Made by a program: the position numbers and the translations under genes
Notes under the pieces: generated by a model
What the model was told of the DNA's origin: nothing
Seen by the model: only the letters and a program-made list of their open reading frames with translations
The model's database searches: none
Part shown: piece after piece, positions 140-53,172 of the stretch
How positions within the stretch are numbered: the first letter of the stretch is position 1
Layout of the letters: every line of letters begins with the position of its first letter
Source: Alphaproteobacteria bacterium
GTDB taxonomy: Bacteria > Pseudomonadota > Alphaproteobacteria > UBA9655
NCBI GenBank assembly: GCA_019749915.1
Contig: JAIEPE010000002.1
Location: 1-64,000, forward strand
Length of the DNA stretch: 64,000 nucleotides
Reading direction: 5' to 3'

Positions 140-562
140 ATGAAAAACGATCTTAAGGTCTCTCATTGGGCCCATGAGCTCAGTAATGCCATCCCAGACA
201 AAGCCGTCGGGATTAGTCTTGCACCTTTAGCAGGAGATGATTTGTTTACATCCTATGTCGCTGAGATTCCTGTCGGCGCTTGCGTTGCAGCCCATTATCA
301 TCCAAAAGGGATCGAAATCTATCAGATATTAGCAGGCAAAGGTTTGATGAAGATTGGCTCTGTCACCGCAGATCAGCCCGTAAGGTGGGATCAATGCAGA
401 GAAGTTACAAGTGGAGACTTTTTTACAATCCATCCTGGCATCGTACATCAACTTGAAAATAATTCTTTAGAGCGATTAATTTTAATCGTCACTTGTTCTC
501 CCACAAACTTGAGCTACAATCGCATTGTAACAGAACAAAAGGTAGAAAATGCAGCACGTTGA
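140..562 (+). CDS. Cupin-domain protein
   Basis: A 140-residue single-domain cupin. Cupin motif 1 is complete: G46, five residues, H52-Y-H54, four residues, E59, six residues, G66. Motif 2 is recognisable around PGIVHQLEN. The two His and the Glu would bind a divalent metal in the barrel. There is no signal peptide, so it should be cytoplasmic. An AGGAG ribosome site lies 7 bases before the ATG. It overlaps the following methyltransferase gene by 14 bases, so the two are probably co-translated. The substrate is unknown; small cupins act as isomerases, dioxygenases or sugar-binding sensors. Confidence 0.75.
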   Translation: MKNDLKVSHWAHELSNAIPDKAVGISLAPLAGDDLFTSYVAEIPVGACVAAHYHPKGIEIYQILAGKGLMKIGSVTADQPVRWDQCREVTSGDFFTIHPGIVHQLENNSLERLILIVTCSPTNLSYNRIVTEQKVENAAR

Positions 563-1280
563 ATGTGAAAAATGGGTAAGCACTTTAAATGATAGAGGCT
601 ATATGACATTGAGTATAGACCCATTTACACAAAAGTTCTTAGACTATTGTGAAAGTCATTCAGGTGTGCATGTTTTTGAAGGAGGAGCTGCCTATGGAAT
701 TGCAACACACCTTGCCCTAAAAAGAGGCGCTATCGTCACTGCAAATGATGGTGATCCAAGGCACCTTGACTTATTGTATGAACATACCCCTCAAGAATTT
801 CGCTCTGCCCTTAAACTATCTCCTGGTATGCTCCCCCACGACCTTGATTTTCCGAAGGATTCATTTGATGTCATTTATTCATCAAGAATGATGCATTTTT
901 TGACGGGTGAAGAAGTTGAAATTTGTATGAGCAAATTTTTTAATTGGCTTAAAGAGGGAGGAAAAATATTCTTAGTGGTTGAAAGTCCTTATCTTGGTGC
1001 TTGCTATTCTGCATTCATCCTCACCTATGAAGAAAGAAAAAAACAAGGTCACCCTTGGCCCGGCTTGATTGAAGACACAACATCTTATAAATCTATGCGG
1101 TATAATAATATTCCTCGCCTTCTGAACTTTTTTGACACGGATATTATGAGGCGAATTTCTAAAAACTGTGGGCTTATAGTTGAAGAATGTGCTTACATTA
1201 ACCGCACCGATTTTCCTCTGGAAGTCAGACACGACGGCAGAGAAAGTGTCGGACTTGTAGCAACCAAGCCTTATGCGTAA
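549..1280 (+). CDS. Class I SAM-dependent methyltransferase
   Basis: A 243-residue protein with a Rossmann-type methyltransferase core. Motif I is VFEGGAAYG near residues 42-50. An acidic ND pair follows at the end of beta 2, a DVIYSSRMMHF motif-IV-like segment comes around residue 110, and a KEGGKIFLV post-motif strand after it. The C-terminal third (about 150-243) is a lid or substrate domain I cannot assign. It starts inside the cupin gene, which suggests coupled translation and a shared small-molecule pathway. The methyl acceptor is unknown. The gene is followed at once by a 101-bp structured repeat. Confidence 0.75.
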   Translation: MQHVECEKWVSTLNDRGYMTLSIDPFTQKFLDYCESHSGVHVFEGGAAYGIATHLALKRGAIVTANDGDPRHLDLLYEHTPQEFRSALKLSPGMLPHDLDFPKDSFDVIYSSRMMHFLTGEEVEICMSKFFNWLKEGGKIFLVVESPYLGACYSAFILTYEERKKQGHPWPGLIEDTTSYKSMRYNNIPRLLNFFDTDIMRRISKNCGLIVEECAYINRTDFPLEVRHDGRESVGLVATKPYA

Positions 1281-1410: not shown

Positions 1411-2685
1411 TTATGCATAGGCTTGCGCATTCTGAGAAGAGAGATCTTCCTCATTAAATTGAGCATCAAAATTTACAGGACGGGAAAGTTTCAGTGCAAT
1501 CAACCCAAAAATGCCACTAACTATGTAGTAAAGTGCGGGGGCTTCGTTCATTTCACTCATTTTCAATAAAAGGGTGGAGATAAAGGGGGCCGTGCCTCCA
1601 AAAACCCCAACACCAATTGCAAAAGCTGTTGATATTCCTCGACACCTAAAGGAGGAAGGAAATAATTTTAACATATAAGCATGCATAGGACCTAAAAAGA
1701 GAGCAGCCAATAGAGCTAAACCAATTTGGCCAGAGTAGAAAAATCCAGAAGATAATAAGTAAAAAAATGGGTAGGATAGAAAAATCGTTGAGAGGGCACC
1801 CCACTGCATCACCTCCCGATGACCGCATCGATCGGAAAGAAGTCCAAACACAGGAAGGAAGACAATATAAACCCCCAACCCGACATTATTAATCAAGGAG
1901 GCTTGGGAAAGGGAAAGATGCAGCGCAGAGGTTAGATAAGATGTCATATAGCCTACAAGAGAAAGAGACAGTGTTCCTGCCAACCAACCAATGCATACTG
2001 TAACGCCGATGTTTTTCCAGTTCGCATAAAATCCTTTGTATGTGTCACTCTGCTTTTGTATGGCAGAAAAATTTGCCTCTTTTATTTGACTCTTACGCAA
2101 GTAAAAGCCAATCACTCCTATCAAAGCCCCTAAAAGAAAAGCAAGTCGCCAAGACCAATGAGAATATTGAGGAAAAGCAATCACAAGCGCTGCAACCATG
2201 GAGGCCAGGAAAAATCCTACAATTGAAGACGCAATCATGACGCCGCTAATCAGTCCTTTTTTAGGAGTATTTACATTTTCTAAAAGATAAATAGCTGCAT
2301 TATTATATTCTCCGCCTGTACAAAATCCCTGGAGCAGGCGACAGAGAACCAGCATGATGGGAGCCACAAGCCCGATTTGATCATAGGTTGGTAAGAAGCT
2401 AATGCATGTTGTGGGAACAGCCATCAACAAAATGGTCCGACTTAAACATACTTTTCGCCCGACCGTGTCTCCTATGTAGCCAAAGGCTAATGCCCCTATA
2501 GGCCTCATAATAAATCCAATTGCAAAGACACTCGCACTTGCAAGCAAGGAAGAAATACCATCATCACAACAAAAATAGAGAGGAGTAATGATAACGGATA
2601 AAAAACCAAAGAGTCCTAAATCATAAAATTCTAGGAGATTTCCAATAAGCACAAGAAGTGGATTTTTGTTTAAAATTTTAAGCAT
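1411..2685 (-). CDS. MFS transporter, MHS (proline/betaine-like) type
   Basis: A 424-residue membrane protein with about 12 hydrophobic segments. The MFS loop 2-3 signature reads FGYIGDTVGRK, and LLQGFCTGGEY after TM4 is typical of the metabolite:H+ symporter family (ProP, ShiA, KgtP relatives). It would import a small organic solute with protons. It is transcribed away from the ligand-domain gene at 2832 and shares a 146-base control region with it. A second MHS transporter at 50714 sits in the same company (ligand-domain protein and XRE/S24 regulator), so the association is not chance. The substrate cannot be read from sequence. Confidence 0.85.
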   Translation of the reverse strand: MLKILNKNPLLVLIGNLLEFYDLGLFGFLSVIITPLYFCCDDGISSLLASASVFAIGFIMRPIGALAFGYIGDTVGRKVCLSRTILLMAVPTTCISFLPTYDQIGLVAPIMLVLCRLLQGFCTGGEYNNAAIYLLENVNTPKKGLISGVMIASSIVGFFLASMVAALVIAFPQYSHWSWRLAFLLGALIGVIGFYLRKSQIKEANFSAIQKQSDTYKGFYANWKNIGVTVCIGWLAGTLSLSLVGYMTSYLTSALHLSLSQASLINNVGLGVYIVFLPVFGLLSDRCGHREVMQWGALSTIFLSYPFFYLLSSGFFYSGQIGLALLAALFLGPMHAYMLKLFPSSFRCRGISTAFAIGVGVFGGTAPFISTLLLKMSEMNEAPALYYIVSGIFGLIALKLSRPVNFDAQFNEEDLSSQNAQAYA

Positions 2686-2730
2686 ATCTTTTTTTACTAT
2701 AATGTGAGCTAAAAGAAAAGATTTATTTTT

Positions 2731-2800
2731 TTGTTAAACATTTTTGCTAAATCTTCTGTTAAATACTCTTGACGAAGACTCATTGAAATATGAGAATATC
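2731..2800 (+). promoter_or_regulatory. Divergent control region with three direct repeats
   Basis: Between the MFS and ligand-domain genes lie three similar 9-mers, TTGTTAAAC (2731), TTGCTAAAT (2744) and CTGTTAAAT (2756), spaced 12-13 bases apart. They are followed by a TTGACG -35-like hexamer at 2770 and weak -10 options around 2790-2800. Direct repeats at near-helical spacing are a common arrangement for regulator binding. The likely regulator is the XRE/S24 protein at 3426, but this is inference. Confidence 0.35.
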
Positions 2801-2831
2801 TTAAACTTACAATAATGATGGGAGAAAAAAA

Positions 2832-3344
2832 ATGGCAGGAAAAATTCTAACCTCTCTTCCTTCAGATATAGAAAAAAATCTTTTAGCTCTCACAAATAAC
2901 TTACGAGAACTAGGCGTCACTCATATAGGGCACGGCCTCATCGTAGGCTCTTTAAAACCAACCGCATTTTTTTCCTGCAAAGAATGGGCGGAGAGATATG
3001 ATGATGAAGATCTTGTAAGCAGAGACCCCATCAGGGCCTGCGCCCTAAAAACAAATTTCAAGATTATCCCTTGGGAATATATCCCCTCTAATAAGGAGCA
3101 AAGACCCGTAATAGAGGAGAGAAAGCGTGAGTTTTGTTCTAAAACCGGGCTCTTGATCTCTATAAAAAACAAAGAGTTTCATGAAACGTTTGTTTTTGGA
3201 ACAGATTCAAAAAAGCATGATATTACTCATTTTTTCAGTAAAAATTCGCGTGTCCTTATTGAAAATTTATTAATGTTTAGGAAAGAACATATGCGTTATT
3301 ATACCCAAAGCATTTCAAGTTATCGGGCAGGCGCCCAAGAGTGA
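2832..3344 (+). CDS. LuxR-type autoinducer-binding domain protein without HTH
   Basis: A 170-residue protein matching the autoinducer-binding half of LuxR/TraR regulators (PF03472 type) and nothing else. The pocket residues have the right order and spacing: W52, Y56, D65-P66, W81 and G106 correspond to TraR W57, Y61, D70-P71, W85 and G113. The family's C-terminal LuxR HTH is absent, because the protein stops where it should begin. HTH-less relatives such as TrlR of Agrobacterium block a full-length partner; no full-length LuxR or LuxI is visible here. The last ten codons, including the stop, lie inside the 101-bp repeat at 3313, so the original C terminus may have been replaced. A paralogue lies at 52030. 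Confidence 0.75.
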   Translation: MAGKILTSLPSDIEKNLLALTNNLRELGVTHIGHGLIVGSLKPTAFFSCKEWAERYDDEDLVSRDPIRACALKTNFKIIPWEYIPSNKEQRPVIEERKREFCSKTGLLISIKNKEFHETFVFGTDSKKHDITHFFSKNSRVLIENLLMFRKEHMRYYTQSISSYRAGAQE

Positions 3345-3425: not shown

Positions 3426-4073
3426 CTAGTAATGACGGCGTCGATGCCATACGATAGGTGCCACTGTTTTTATAGTATAATCAAATAAAATAGGAGGAGA
3501 TACTTTTGTCAGTGGATTCATACATACCAATGTATAGCATCCCATCTTGGTTCCCTTTAAAAGTCTACGAACAAGCTGTTCTCCCTTTTGAGTAATGATG
3601 ATGCAATCTTTACCAATTGCCTCTTTTAAATTTTCAGAGAACAATCCCCCAACGTAATCTCCAATAGCATAAAAAGGCTCCATCCCATTATCTAACACAC
3701 AACTCACAATACTATTGCTATATAATTGCTGAAAAAAAGAAGCTTCTTTCATTATTTTTAATTCTGGTGATAACGCAGATAATAGGGCTTCACTATCTTC
3801 TAATTCATTCGTTTCAGTTTCTCCTTTTAAAGGAGGAGTACCTTCGCCTTTAAGAAGCCATTTAAGGGTACAAGAGTACCCTTCTTGCCGGACACCATTT
3901 GCGATTCTTTCTGCTGTTTTCTGATTTAAAGGCCTTTCTCCTTTTTCAATGGCATATAAATGAGAGAAGGAAATTCTATATTTTTTTCCAAATGCAGGTA
4001 ACTTCATACCACATAACGTAATCGCTATTCTTACTCGCTTACCGCAATCTTTTCTGATTTCATCGTTAATCAT
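3426..4073 (-). CDS. XRE-family regulator with degenerate S24 domain
   Basis: A 215-residue protein. Residues about 8-65 form a lambda-repressor-type HTH, with ISFSHLYAIEKGERP as recognition-helix region. WLLKGEG follows, and residues about 120-215 form a LexA/CI-like S24 domain (MEPFYAIGDYVGG, LVRRLL). The catalytic Ser that normally precedes the Met of this motif is G130, and the general-base Lys is replaced by Arg (R169/R170). Self-cleavage is therefore unlikely, and the domain probably serves dimerisation or ligand sensing. It converges on the ligand-domain gene. A clear paralogue at 52552 has the same neighbours and the same loss of the dyad. Confidence 0.8.
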   Translation of the reverse strand: MINDEIRKDCGKRVRIAITLCGMKLPAFGKKYRISFSHLYAIEKGERPLNQKTAERIANGVRQEGYSCTLKWLLKGEGTPPLKGETETNELEDSEALLSALSPELKIMKEASFFQQLYSNSIVSCVLDNGMEPFYAIGDYVGGLFSENLKEAIGKDCIIITQKGEQLVRRLLKGTKMGCYTLVCMNPLTKVSPPILFDYTIKTVAPIVWHRRRHY

Positions 4074-4431
4074 ACATACCTAAATACATTTTCTAAAAGT
4101 CTTTTTAATTAATAGGCGCATCTCTATTATTGTTTTTTAGCCTGTAGTTATTCTTCAGGGAAAATAAGTTAATAGACATAAAAAGTCTATATAGAGATTT
4201 AAGAAAAAACCTAATTTTATTGAGCTGCAAAAAATATATTGCTTTTTAAAAAAAGAGAACATATTCTTTTTTTGAAGAGAAAGAATTCAAAAATATTTTT
4301 TCTCAGAGCTTAAAGTAGCTTGTAATTCTTGTTGTTGATGGTGTTTTTTAAGGCCTCCAGAGAAAGAACGTCTTCATACGTTCTTTCTCTCAAAGTTAAT
4401 GTTTCTTCGATACAAGCTAGAAATTACCCTA
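4074..4431. other. AT-rich intergenic region with hairpins
   Basis: No gene is visible in these 358 bases. They contain the upstream region of the XRE/S24 gene, a small inverted repeat TAGAC-N7-GTCTA at 4173-4189, and a perfect 12-bp stem with an 8-base loop at 4359-4390 (AGAGAAAGAACG and its complement). The stem is preceded by AAGGCCTCCA at 4350-4359. The hairpin lies 42 bases past the stop codon of the minus-strand gene at 4432, so it may be that gene's terminator, although no T tract follows. The other XRE/S24 gene has the same arrangement with the same decamer (53308-53343). Confidence 0.5.
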
Positions 4432-5415
4432 TCAAAACGACCAAATTCTCCGCTCCTTGAGCACATCGGCGAGACGATGGGCTGGGAGAATATCCGCAGC
4501 TGGCAGAGGTATTAAAGCTAAATCCGGATAGGTCACCCACGCCAAGTTTTGGCCTTCCGCACCATGAGGAGAACCTTCCCATTTGTGACAAAGATAAAGG
4601 GGCATAATCATATGAAAGGTATCATAACGGTAGGAAGCAAAGGTTAAAGGTTCAAGGTCTTCCTCTCGTACTTGGATCCCCAGCTCTTCCTGCAATTCCC
4701 GAATCAAGGATATCTCAGGGGTTTCACCGGACTCCATCTTCCCTCCAGGAAGCTCCCACACGCCTGGTAAGGCTTTTCCTTGAGATCGCTCCGAAATAAG
4801 CATTTCCCCCTTTTCATTGATCAGAATGGCAGCCACCACCCACACCAAGGGGCGCTTCATGCCATGATATCGCGTGATAAAATCATGGAAAGAAGAGGCG
4901 TAACACACAGCTTCCTGCGTTCCTTCAAAGGCCTTAGAAGAGGCTTCCGTTGTACCCACTTCACGAAACTTAAGCTTCTCAAAAATACGGCGAGAAGCCG
5001 CATTGGTTTTTAAAGCACTTGCTTTGAGCTCTTTTTGTTTCAACACATGAAAACAAAAATGCACAAGGGCCCCCATAGCTTCGGTCCCATAACCCTGTCC
5101 CCAGTAGGGTTTCCCGAGCCACAATCCGAGTTCTCCCTCAGAAGAAATAACGCCCATAAACTGCTGATCAGAACGCCTGACAATGGCTAGGATTACACAT
5201 TTTCCTTCCGCCATAGAACGCTGAGCAAAAGCAACAAATGTTTCAGCATCCTGAAACGTATAAGGATGGGGGACACGTCGCAACTTTTCCGCAATATCCT
5301 TATCGTTAAGTAAGTGTTGTATAAGCACCGCATCCTCTACCCTTAAAGGACGTAAGGTCAATCTTTCTGTGGCAACAGGTAAAAAGGGCCGATTCAACAA
5401 GGTTGAAGGGATCAT
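4432..5415 (-). CDS. GNAT acetyltransferase fused to NUDIX (MutT-type) hydrolase
   Basis: About 327 residues from the ATG at 5415. The first ~165 residues are a RimJ/RimL-type GNAT domain (TERLTLRPLR, GYGTEAMGAL acetyl-CoA loop, NAASRRIFEKLKF). The last ~140 are a NUDIX domain with an intact box (G-N5-E-N7-REL-N-EE-LG-I) like 8-oxo-dGTP hydrolases. The reading frame stays open to 5655, but that would overlap divergent cysQ. An ATG at 5466 is possible but has poor ribosome-site spacing, so the 5' end is uncertain. It likely couples nucleotide-pool cleaning with an acetylation whose target is unknown. Confidence 0.8.
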   Translation of the reverse strand: MIPSTLLNRPFLPVATERLTLRPLRVEDAVLIQHLLNDKDIAEKLRRVPHPYTFQDAETFVAFAQRSMAEGKCVILAIVRRSDQQFMGVISSEGELGLWLGKPYWGQGYGTEAMGALVHFCFHVLKQKELKASALKTNAASRRIFEKLKFREVGTTEASSKAFEGTQEAVCYASSFHDFITRYHGMKRPLVWVVAAILINEKGEMLISERSQGKALPGVWELPGGKMESGETPEISLIRELQEELGIQVREEDLEPLTFASYRYDTFHMIMPLYLCHKWEGSPHGAEGQNLAWVTYPDLALIPLPAADILPAHRLADVLKERRIWSF

Positions 5416-5475
5416 AACATCATCTTTCTTTAAAAATTCCTTTTCTTTTTCTCCTTTCCTGAGCATACTCCGCTC

Positions 5476-6255
5476 ATGGAAAATGTTAATCCCTCTTTCG
5501 AAAATATTATTCCAAAACTTATCGCCCTCTCTGAACAAGCGGGAGCTCTTATCGCTCACCTTTATAAAAAAGCAGAAGGCCTTGAGATTATCAGAAAAGG
5601 AGATGGCTCCCCTGTGACGGAAGCCGATCATCAAAGCCACCATCTTCTTGCACAAGGCTTAAAAGAACTCACCCCTCATATCCCCGTTATTTCTGAAGAA
5701 GATGAAGAGTCTTGGAATATCAAAAATCCTTTTTATTGGTTAATCGACCCCCTTGATGGCACCAGAGGATTCATTGGGCGGGATGGACAATTTTGCATCA
5801 ATATTGCTTTAATGGAGGATAACAAGGCCATCCTGGGCCTTATCCACCTTCCTCTCACTAGAGAAACTTTTTATGGTTATGGAAACACGGCTGTAAAACA
5901 TATCTCTGGACAAAGCACATCTATCCATACAAGGCGTCGCCCTCCTGAAGGATCAACCCTTCTCCTCAGCAATCATGATCTTAAATGTAAAGAGAAATGG
6001 GAAAAATATATAAAAGACTTCCCCCACCCTATCCTTAAACCACTTCACAGCGCCATCAAGTTCTGCCGTATTGCAGAAGGCGCAGCTGACATTTATTTAC
6101 GTTTTGTTCCCTGCAAAGAATGGGACACGGCTGCAGGTCAAATTCTCGTTGAAGCTGCGGGAGGTAGCATGGAAACCCTTGAGGGAACTCCTTTTCTCTA
6201 CGGTAAACCCAACCTTAAAAACCCAGGCTTTAAGGTCTTGGGTCAGAAGCCATGA
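5476..6255 (+). CDS. cysQ: 3'(2'),5'-bisphosphate nucleotidase CysQ
   Basis: A 259-residue member of the inositol monophosphatase superfamily. Metal-binding motifs are present: the acidic SEEDEES segment, DPLDGTRGF (the family's DPxDGTxxF) and EWDTAAGQIL near the C terminus. The order and the GTRGF variant favour CysQ, which converts PAP/PAPS to AMP and phosphate, over SuhB; a SuhB-like paralogue is at 53360. It overlaps the next gene by ATGA, so cysQ and tsaC are translationally coupled. Confidence 0.85.
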   Translation: MENVNPSFENIIPKLIALSEQAGALIAHLYKKAEGLEIIRKGDGSPVTEADHQSHHLLAQGLKELTPHIPVISEEDEESWNIKNPFYWLIDPLDGTRGFIGRDGQFCINIALMEDNKAILGLIHLPLTRETFYGYGNTAVKHISGQSTSIHTRRRPPEGSTLLLSNHDLKCKEKWEKYIKDFPHPILKPLHSAIKFCRIAEGAADIYLRFVPCKEWDTAAGQILVEAAGGSMETLEGTPFLYGKPNLKNPGFKVLGQKP

Positions 6256-50713: not shown

Positions 50714-52033
50714 ATGACAACCATTGCCATTAATCAAAAACTACAAGGTACAATCTCGAAAGATCCAACGTCTAAAGTTTTTTTATCTGCCTACATTTGC
50801 AACATGCTAGAGATGTATGATTTCCTTATCACAGGAATGATGTTTCCTTATATTTCCCAGTTATTCTTCCCCTTGGAGGATAAAATTTCTGTCCTCTTAG
50901 CTGGCTCTCTGACCTTTCTAGTTGGCTTCCTTATGATGCCACTTGGTGGCATCCTTTTTGGCTATATCGGCGATAGATACGGCCGCAAACGCGCGCTTCT
51001 TATAAGCATTTCGGGAATGACCCTTGCAACCGTTGGTATTGGGCTTCTCCCCACCTATAACGCCATTTTATTTTTGTCCCCCATCCTCTTCGTATTTTTA
51101 AGACTTATCCAAGGGTTATGTCTTGGAGGAGAAAAGCAAGGCGCAAGCATTTTTACCCTCGAGCATTATAAAGGTATCCGCCCTGGAACCCGCGGCGCAT
51201 TACTGGCAACATCAAACGGCATGGCAGCCCTTGTTGCCTTTTTTATAAGCTTAATCGCAACATCCTATCTTTCCTCACAAGAAGGCTGGAGATTTTGCTA
51301 TCTCTTCGGCGGAAGCTTGGGAATTGTGGGTCTCTATCTTCGATTTTTTATTAATGAATCACCTGCTTTTCTTCAATATTTTTCTGAGAAAACCCTTAGG
51401 AAAAACGTTCCGCTTATCAACGTTTTGAAAAACAGAAAACTCAACGTTATGAACGCTTTTTTGGGCACAGGGGTTCTTGTTTGTTTAACCTATACGGGCT
51501 TTACATTTGTCAATCTTTTCCTTACCCAATTTTTAAATTTCTCCTCCACCTTCTCTCTTTCCTGTGCAGCTTCAGGAACAATCATAGGAATGATTGCCGT
51601 TTGTTTTGCTGGGAGGCTTTGTGATCGTTTTGGCCTATATACTATACTCCAACTTTCTCTGCTTATTCTCTTAGTCACCATTTTTCCGATTCATTGGCTT
51701 TTAGCTTCAGGAAATACTGCAGGAATATTTCTTTCTCTGCTTCTTCTGGCCTTTCCTACAGGTGGTTTTGCCGGATGCATCCCCCACTTAATTGCAAGTT
51801 CCTTTCCTCCCCAGGAACGCTATAGTGGATCTGCTTTTAGCAATAATTTAGCACAGGCCTTTTTAGGAGGTGTCCAACCTTTCCTTGCAATCTATTTGAT
51901 TAAAATAACTGATGTTTTATGGTCTCCAGCGATCTATACATTTTTATTAGCAGCTACCTATTTTTTGTTTTTACAGGTGTTTGGAAAAAAACTAACTTGT
52001 TTTGATTATATAGGTAAGGAGTCACAAAAATGA
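50714..52033 (+). CDS. MFS transporter, MHS type (cassette 2)
   Basis: A 439-residue protein with about 12 membrane segments. The signature FGYIGDRYGRKRAL and the RLIQGLCLGGEKQGA segment after TM4 mark the metabolite:H+ symporter family, as in the transporter at 1411. A TTGACA at 50607 with TAACTA 17 bases on is a possible promoter. GGGAG lies upstream of the ATG. The stop overlaps the ligand-domain gene (ATGA), so the two are co-translated, which is direct support for a functional link. Substrate unknown. Confidence 0.87.
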   Translation: MTTIAINQKLQGTISKDPTSKVFLSAYICNMLEMYDFLITGMMFPYISQLFFPLEDKISVLLAGSLTFLVGFLMMPLGGILFGYIGDRYGRKRALLISISGMTLATVGIGLLPTYNAILFLSPILFVFLRLIQGLCLGGEKQGASIFTLEHYKGIRPGTRGALLATSNGMAALVAFFISLIATSYLSSQEGWRFCYLFGGSLGIVGLYLRFFINESPAFLQYFSEKTLRKNVPLINVLKNRKLNVMNAFLGTGVLVCLTYTGFTFVNLFLTQFLNFSSTFSLSCAASGTIIGMIAVCFAGRLCDRFGLYTILQLSLLILLVTIFPIHWLLASGNTAGIFLSLLLLAFPTGGFAGCIPHLIASSFPPQERYSGSAFSNNLAQAFLGGVQPFLAIYLIKITDVLWSPAIYTFLLAATYFLFLQVFGKKLTCFDYIGKESQK

Positions 52034-52545
52034 GCAATCCCAAAACCTTTAAAAATTCAGGCATGGAAATAACCTTGAGGAAGGATTTTTATGATACCTT
52101 TGATGAGCAGCTGAAAAAAATTACATCAGAGACAGAAGTCAGCTATATCGGCCATAACATCATCAAAAATTATCGCGAGCCAGGGCACAAAATAAGCACA
52201 TTCTGTAACCATGAGACCTGGCATGATTTATACTGGAACAAATATCTACACCATGATCCCATGGAAAAGGTCGTTCATGAAACTTTAAGAAAGAGTAATT
52301 TTGCCGTCGTTTCCTGGGAAATTGGTCAAAATCAAAGTGAGTGCGGGCAAGAGAGGGCAAAACTATTAAGGGTCAAAGATGGCGTTTTCTTTTCCTTTAA
52401 AAGACCTGAGAATTTTTTTGAAACTTTTATTATCGGCTGGGACACCTTAAATACAGATAAACTGGATGTAGATTATATTCTCCAGCTAACCTCTCTCCTC
52501 AAACCTATCAGGGATCACCACTGGGAAGTTCTTAATAACAGTTAA
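52030..52545 (+). CDS. LuxR-type autoinducer-binding domain protein without HTH (cassette 2)
   Basis: A 171-residue paralogue of the protein at 2832. Pocket residues again line up: W64, Y68, D76-P77, W96 and G118, then FFETFIIGW (compare FHETFVFGT in the other copy). The DNA-binding half of LuxR proteins is missing, and here no repeat has cut the end, so the short form appears to be the native one. AAGGAG lies 9 bases upstream. It overlaps the transporter gene by 4 bases and converges on the XRE/S24 gene with a 6-base gap. Confidence 0.75.
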   Translation: MSNPKTFKNSGMEITLRKDFYDTFDEQLKKITSETEVSYIGHNIIKNYREPGHKISTFCNHETWHDLYWNKYLHHDPMEKVVHETLRKSNFAVVSWEIGQNQSECGQERAKLLRVKDGVFFSFKRPENFFETFIIGWDTLNTDKLDVDYILQLTSLLKPIRDHHWEVLNNS

Positions 52546-52551
52546 GGTTTT

Positions 52552-53172
52552 TTACTCTCTAAACCGCCTCATAAAAGTAACCGGAGCAACGCTTAAAGGC
52601 TCATGCTCCAGAAGAAGCAAGTGGTTTTCTGTGCTTTGATTCATCGAAAGTAAAAGGATATAACTCTTTTGCAAGAAAAATTGGCGCACCAAAAAATGAT
52701 TTTTCTCCATTTCCACGATACAAATATTCCCTTGTTCTTTGGGATAGGCTTCCGGAGAGATTATAGGTCCCCCTACGTAATCCCCAATGCGTAAAAAAGG
52801 AGACATAGTCTCATCACGCATCAAAGTTAAAAGCATCTCCGGATGAGCTTTTTTAAAGGATTCAATTTCCTTATAAATAAGAAATTGATTGGTTATATCA
52901 AAAGGCTCATCTTTTCTTTCGTCAAATGATAGGGAAGGTGTCAAAAGGTAGGGAGCATCTCCTCTTCCTTCCAACAGCCATTCTTTTGTACAAATAAGCC
53001 CTTCTGTCGCTAAAAGGCTGATAATCTTATGGACATTTTTTTCTGAGATAGGAGAAGTGCCCGACTCCCAATTTGAAAGAGATCCAATACTTATTTTATG
53101 AGTATCTCCTAATTCCTTCAACGTCTTTTTAAGCATATTTCTACATTGCTTCAAACGATTTGCTCTGTTCAT
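52552..53172 (-). CDS. XRE-family regulator with degenerate S24 domain (cassette 2)
   Basis: 206 residues. N-terminal HTH (ISIGSLSNWESGTSPIS), then WLLEGRG, then an S24 domain with MSPFLRIGDYVGG and FLVRQFF. It matches the protein at 3426 along its length (IGDYVGG, WLL-G-G, C-terminal AP-N3-RR). The catalytic Ser position is T122 and the Lys position is R163, so neither paralogue keeps the dyad. AGGA lies 6 bases before the ATG. A TTTTGT-AG-ACAAAA palindrome at 53223-53236, 50 bases upstream, could be its own operator. Confidence 0.8.
   Translation of the reverse strand: MNRANRLKQCRNMLKKTLKELGDTHKISIGSLSNWESGTSPISEKNVHKIISLLATEGLICTKEWLLEGRGDAPYLLTPSLSFDERKDEPFDITNQFLIYKEIESFKKAHPEMLLTLMRDETMSPFLRIGDYVGGPIISPEAYPKEQGNICIVEMEKNHFLVRQFFLQKSYILLLSMNQSTENHLLLLEHEPLSVAPVTFMRRFRE

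Follow-up and report, generated by a model that had tools for sequence, protein, structure and literature searches.

Stand-alone LuxR-type autoinducer-binding domains paired with cI-type XRE regulators and transporter genes: a possible split receptor in small-genome Alphaproteobacteria

ABD genes and their pocket signature

The open reading frame that opens with the ATG at 2832 of the window (the whole stretch of 64,000 nucleotides analysed here) is preceded by GGGAG and runs uninterrupted to a stop at 3344. Its product, ABD1, was recognized as a LuxR-type autoinducer-binding domain (ABD) standing alone, and the genome encodes three such proteins, two in the window (Table 1) and one on contig C68 (13539-13871).

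Table 1. Features at the two ABD loci of the window, by position
Feature	Position	Strand	Remarks
Cupin protein	140..562	+	Conserved with the type-1 cassette
SAM methyltransferase	549..1280	+	Relatives also flank XRE-less type-4 ABDs
MFS metabolite/H+ symporter, ProP/TcuC-like	1411..2685	-	TIGR00883 E=1.2e-85, under the curated cutoff; divergent from ABD1
MFS1/ABD1 divergent intergenic region	2686..2831		146 bp; presumed shared control region
ABD1, stand-alone LuxR-type ABD	2832..3344	+	170 aa, without HTH
XRE1, cI-type regulator (XRE HTH + S24-like domain)	3426..4073	-	Ser/Lys dyad not intact; gene convergent with that of ABD1; putative partner for output
Dyad ATAGAC-N7-GTCTAT	4172..4190		Precedes the XRE1 gene; motif derived from this site, with no second exact copy in the window
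MFS metabolite/H+ symporter, second cassette	50714..52033	+	TIGR00883 type
ABD2, second stand-alone ABD	52030..52545	+	171 aa; first 4 bp shared with the end of the MFS gene
cI-type XRE/S24-like regulator, second cassette	52552..53172	-	Convergent with ABD2, 6-bp gap

Searched with PF03472 (Autoind_bind), ABD1 gives a match (E=1e-4) of 22.3 bits, which is marginal when taken alone, the curated cutoff being 23. The same model matches 8 of 18 ABD relatives (best 2.2e-12) and scores the C68 copy above the cutoff (46.7 bits). No direct PF03472 match to ABD2 was obtained; this protein shares 29% identity with ABD1 over 114 aa (BLASTP E=1e-9 in a single comparison) and matches the family profile at 1.4e-45, being itself part of that profile. 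When a profile built from 13 stand-alone ABDs was run against PDB sequences, TraR (1h0m/1l3l) was the best match (E=1.6e-4), and all 21 matches listed were LuxR-family receptors (TraR, RhlR, CviR, LasR, QscR and similar).

ABD1 carries W52, Y56, D65, P66, W81 and G106, with a W-Y-D-W spacing of 4/9/16 against 4/9/15 in TraR, just as the preliminary description of this DNA had noted, and in the 13-ABD profile alignment W52/Y56/D65/P66/W81 fall in register with W57/Y61/D70/P71/W85 of TraR. The six signature residues (W57, Y61, D70, P71, W85 and G113 in TraR numbering) are complete in all three stand-alone proteins of the genome. The earlier statement that the paralogue at 52030 keeps the same residues was thus borne out as to their identity (W64, Y68, D76, P77, W96, G118), whereas the same spacing was not found, that of ABD2 being 4/8/20. 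An alignment of 18 diverse stand-alone ABDs has 158 columns, of which no more than 7 are invariant; the signature supplies 5 of them (hypergeometric 1.6e-7, a rough value since columns are not independent), and its sixth column, D, changes to E only. Every aligned XRE-paired ABD of the genus has the full signature, despite an identity of ~17-27% between types.

The AF2 model of ABD1, built from a three-sequence alignment, has a pLDDT of 59 and shows helices and strands in the expected order. With this low-confidence model, Foldseek placed the LuxR ABDs of YenR and QscR on top (E 0.02), and VIA-align ranked LuxR ABDs first, with a Z of 6.4 tied with GAF domains; the model is no more than compatible with the alpha-beta-alpha fold of the LuxR pocket. 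The profile searches did recover the autoinducer-binding family, so that the outcome named beforehand as refuting did not occur. We are highly confident that ABD1 is a genuine LuxR-type ABD, in line with the original reading of a LuxR-type pocket without a DNA-binding domain. Its pocket carries the full acyl-homoserine-lactone signature; ligand binding is predicted. The dN/dS of the ABD in four unsaturated close ortholog pairs (0.055-0.097), along with pocket columns that stay invariant at deep divergence, agrees with the earlier view of a pocket kept under selection, and on these codon comparisons ABD1 is under purifying selection. Viral contigs and plasmids yielded no ABD, and the distant phage relatives of the neighbouring XRE regulator have none nearby, so that descent of the ABD from a phage or a plasmid was considered and rejected.

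No GerE HTH was detected on the contig of the window, and the ABD1 frame stops where the ABD ends. A frameshifted or lost HTH adjoining ABD1 was likewise discarded, the next gene being the convergent XRE regulator. Elsewhere in the genome there are 15 GerE matches, ~10 of them in open frames of ~1100 aa. These long frames, which start with the GerE HTH (for example G000:C68:49880, C69:18574 and C72:17413), are expanded in the genus; in L039, the one that was read, a STAND-like P-loop (GMGGAGKTTLA) follows. Three full-length LuxR-type proteins of about 270-293 aa, composed of an ABD-like N-terminus and GerE, are encoded at C44:11326 and, twice, at C72:102.4-104.1 kb. They are unlinked to the ABDs and related to them only distantly; D70 and P71 are missing in all three, W85 and G113 in two. 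Hence they would make poor TraR-like partners, and the complete pocket sits in the stand-alone proteins rather than in these full-length ones. The initial claim that a TraR partner is missing therefore stands in so far as no close or linked LuxR bearing D70/P71 was found, and fails in so far as full-length LuxR proteins do exist. The synthase search, made with the LuxI family PF00765, gave no match in 14 of 15 genomes, including the genome under study (97% complete), and a single sub-threshold fragment with stops in G006.

The cI-type regulator and the transporter beside each ABD

All three ABDs of the genome adjoin both an MFS gene of the TIGR00883 type and a cI-type XRE-HTH/S24-like regulator, in three different arrangements. 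In type 1 (at 2832), the MFS gene is divergent from the ABD gene and the XRE gene convergent with it; in type 2 (at 52030), the MFS and ABD genes overlap, which likely couples them translationally, and the XRE gene faces them. In type 3 (on C68), an XRE-deformylase pair is convergent with an ABD-MFS pair, in which the ABD gene lies directly downstream of the MFS gene on the same strand. A profile search of this genome recovered three XRE-family genes and no more, each next to a different ABD, which argues that it is not a generic neighbour; relatives of the TIGR00883-type MFS, a broad family, may be numerous.

The regulators have HTH_3/HTH_19 matches at the N-terminus. Their structure model is of low confidence overall, with a pLDDT of ~85 in the HTH region and a C-terminal domain that the model does not confirm. 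PF00717 (Peptidase_S24) was found in 6 of 10 members, weakly (best 3.3e-4, below the cutoff), and eight of the ten match phrog_4 (phage transcriptional repressor) along the whole protein, at best with 5.6e-11; relatives of the family also occur in phage, on viral contigs (profile match 8.9e-16). Over their whole length the XREs have the layout of cI/LexA-type phage repressors (phrog_4, Peptidase_S24), an HTH followed by an S24-like C-terminal part. They differ from these in lying beside ABD and MFS genes and in the Ser/Lys dyad, which is broken throughout: among 22 regulators, the position of the catalytic Ser is mostly occupied by G, T, A, L or V (Ser in three only), that of the catalytic Lys is never Lys, and none has the full dyad. 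The phage relative L170, from a viral contig, retains GDSM and FVK at these positions. It was taken as the comparison in place of the genome's own UmuD, to which the XRE-family profile aligned too weakly (prob 8%). That UmuD-like protein, with GDSM and TVK intact, is encoded as a pair with a UmuC/DinB-like protein (L167:1303-3149, on G000:C72) and is the genome's only strong S24 match. A broken dyad makes self-cleavage unlikely as the switch, so that another input would be needed; the XRE regulators are probably not self-cleaving, and the family looks like a domesticated cI-type repressor.

The dyad upstream of the XRE1 gene is suggestive of an autoregulatory operator. Type-3 XRE genes have upstream inverted repeats of the form ATACGA-N5-TCGTAT and variants (XRE3, L003 7141-7157, and orthologues), and such repeats upstream of XRE genes suggest autoregulation. 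An operator common to the XRE and the MFS/ABD promoters was sought and dismissed: the XRE dyad motifs were not found upstream of the transporters, and counts with 2-3 mismatches equal chance. No operator was identified in the region 2686-2831.

Several further genes accompany the cassettes. An ORF at 4432-5655 of the window (minus strand) appears by eye to combine GNAT acetyltransferase-like and MutT/NUDIX-like parts. Near the type-3 cassette, a conserved ORF (L003:5606-6229) bears a faint resemblance to 2OG-Fe(II) oxygenases (E=0.07). A family of about 190-225 aa lies beside type-3 cassettes and, in congeners, also near the large GerE genes; it is represented on C68 by L003:6288-6929 and elsewhere by L128:36-617, L041:1996-2577, L042:583-1251, L038:1913-2509 and L048:553-1233. 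It has no match in Pfam, NCBIfam or PDB sequences, and the guess that it might be a LuxI/GNAT-like synthase was dropped for this reason.

Distribution of the cassettes

Profile searches over 15 genomes of the genus, in which L008 and L062 are one contig and were counted once, revealed 25 stand-alone ABDs: 3 of type 1, 4 of type 2, 9 of type 3 and 9 of type 4. An XRE regulator adjoins 15 of the 16 ABDs of types 1-3, with the deformylase gene in between in type 3; in the one exception, G004, both genes are present at separate places. The XRE family has 17 members in the genus. Of these, 14 adjoin an ABD, another is the G004 gene that has moved away from its ABD, and the last two have both an MFS relative and a LysR gene close by, a few genes off at most. 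The latter loci (L129:3682-7037 and L130:2621-6308) group an XRE-S24 gene, without an ABD, with LysR, a small ORF and the MFS relative, and perhaps are a variant cassette with another sensor; shorter relatives of the L003:6288-6929 family occur at both. At L100:4800-5875 (G009), a type-2 ABD is duplicated in tandem between one MFS and one XRE gene.

ABDs of types 1-3 and the XRE family were found in the same 11 of the 15 genomes and neither in G001, G005, G007 and G011, an absence that is less firm in G011 (63% complete) and G001 (83% complete). The nine type-4 ABDs, none of which belongs to the genome under study, have no adjacent XRE of this family; their neighbours are a methyltransferase gene and an MFS gene, and their pocket has E for D. 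A transporter of the TIGR00883 family is next to 24 of the 25 ABDs of the genus, the remaining one (L103, type 4) being at a contig end. Distances among 14 cassettes are strongly correlated between ABD and XRE (Mantel r 0.98), ABD and MFS (0.95) and the remaining pair (0.97), as is expected for units that duplicate together, so that the correlation alone does not prove contact.

In 385 genomes across the class, stand-alone ABDs occur in a few, mostly small, genomes, and 398 genomes across the phylum added one weak match only. Adjacent ABD and XRE genes outside the genus were found in G249 (twice, with MFS), G342 and G149, which represent three further alphaproteobacterial families; two of these loci are convergent and two co-directional, and at two of them (L160, L165) no MFS of this type was detected. 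At least seven ABDs of other families have neither the XRE nor this MFS nearby, and ABDs without a nearby XRE outside the genus include those of G147, G318 and G235 and several in G249. Taken with type 4, these show that the XRE is not universal. On the other hand, a pairing kept through altered gene order argues for function rather than for a frozen block.

A possible split receptor

The gene context, with the XRE regulator as neighbour, supports well the earlier proposition that output would pass through another protein; the candidate for this protein is new and inferred here. On genomic grounds the XRE regulator is probably the functional partner of the ABD. We propose that ABD and XRE form a split receptor: with its ligand bound, the ABD would act via the neighbouring XRE repressor to control the transporter. 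We give this reading about an even chance or somewhat under. The ligand, entering the cell, would change the state of the ABD, which would then bind the XRE regulator and alter its DNA binding. Contact with DNA would fall to the regulator, which would repress (or activate) the genes for the transporter and the ABD, probably along with its own gene, and transporter expression would thereby be coupled to the ligand. The ligand could be an acyl-homoserine lactone produced by neighbours (the PF00765 search having revealed no luxI) or another small molecule related to it, perhaps the very compound that is transported, and the three cassettes would be three separate channels, each with its own ligand. 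In its general form the proposal is tentative: an HTH-less LuxR-type ABD would signal in trans by attaching directly, in a ligand-dependent way, to a cI-type repressor that cannot be cleaved. Deployed several times in one genome, such pairs would gate different transporters and make up a new class of split receptor for quorum signals or other ligands.

Ligand, contact and direction of control in this mechanism are inferred from the genomic pairing, from the protein contact by which TrlR and CerN act (PMC11655674, PMC13043044), from the joint action of phage XRE-LuxR pairs and from the antirepressor Qtip, which sequesters cI (PMC7790227). TrlR of Agrobacterium tumefaciens is likewise a stand-alone LuxR-type ABD without the C-terminal HTH; it shares 88% identity with its partner TraR, which it blocks by forming a heterodimer (PMC11655674), whereas the ABDs described here have no close full-length partner and occur together with genes for an XRE regulator and an MFS transporter. 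The HTH-less CerN of Cereibacter sphaeroides releases another protein, CerM, from DNA in a ligand-dependent manner (PMC11655674), much as is proposed for the ABD; CerM, however, belongs to the LuxR proteins and its locus contains a luxI, while the partner proposed here is of the cI-type XRE/S24 kind and luxI was not found. In the Aeromonas phages Apop and ARM81ld, an XRE regulator and a LuxR-type receptor are adjacent, and both, together with C4-HSL, are required for output, contact having been left open (PMC10432266). The adjacency recurs in the ABD-XRE cassettes, for which joint action is proposed; the phage LuxR, though, keeps its HTH and controls an anti-cI small protein, whereas the LuxR part here is reduced to the ABD, lies on a chromosome and goes with a transporter.

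The constant presence of the transporter invites a different explanation, namely that the ABD serves the MFS protein by binding the imported or exported compound, whether as a carrier, as a buffer or to modulate the transporter directly, and that the XRE controls the operon on its own. The MFS gene accompanies the XRE-less type-4 ABDs as well, and ABD2 is likely coupled to it translationally; the loci L160 and L165, which keep the ABD-XRE adjacency with no such MFS detected, and the strict co-occurrence of ABD and XRE within the genus speak against this explanation, and we consider it rather unlikely. No case is known to us in which an MFS protein is the target of a LuxR-type ABD. It is less plausible again, and in our view improbable, that the ABD binds its ligand as a decoy, forming inactive heterodimers with a full-length LuxR encoded elsewhere. 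Such action is established for the HTH-less TrlR and CerN (PMC11655674, PMC13043044), and the genome does offer three full-length LuxR-type proteins to its HTH-less ABDs; these, however, are unlinked, distant and without D70/P71, no LuxR gene adjoins any ABD in the genome, and the XRE pairing would be left unexplained. That ABD, MFS and XRE merely travel in one mobile cassette, the ABD having no ligand-dependent role, would fit the repeated cassettes and the tandem copies of G009, which testify to duplication, but is very improbable in view of the low dN/dS, the invariance of the pocket at deep divergence and the persistence of the pairing through changes of gene order.

LuxR solos of the XccR/OryR/PsoR type have altered pocket residues. 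Located beside peptidase/transporter genes, they too are transporter-linked and are thought to sense a non-self molecule, yet they are full-length proteins with an HTH, whereas the ABDs described here combine a canonical pocket with the lack of an HTH; the same survey noted ABD-only LuxR proteins as largely unexplained and needing to be looked into (PMC4338825). A literature search that fell short of most subscription papers yielded no account of a LuxR protein reduced to its ABD and accompanied by a cI-type XRE regulator. HTH-less ABDs and phage XRE-LuxR pairs are already known; the combination of an ABD-only protein, a cI-type XRE and a transporter is apparently new, which is not to say proven new.

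The hosts of the ABD-XRE-MFS cassettes are a little-known group of small-genome Alphaproteobacteria. As the LuxR half consists of the pocket alone, any regulatory output must pass through a partner, and that partner is visible in the gene context. The ABD-XRE family is a natural minimal version of the arrangement, in which contact between a LuxR pocket and an XRE regulator is directly testable in E. coli, and it suggests that a cI fold with a dead protease can be wired to a small-molecule sensor. It may also reveal the signal that these small-genome, probably host-associated Alphaproteobacteria, themselves without luxI, are sensing.
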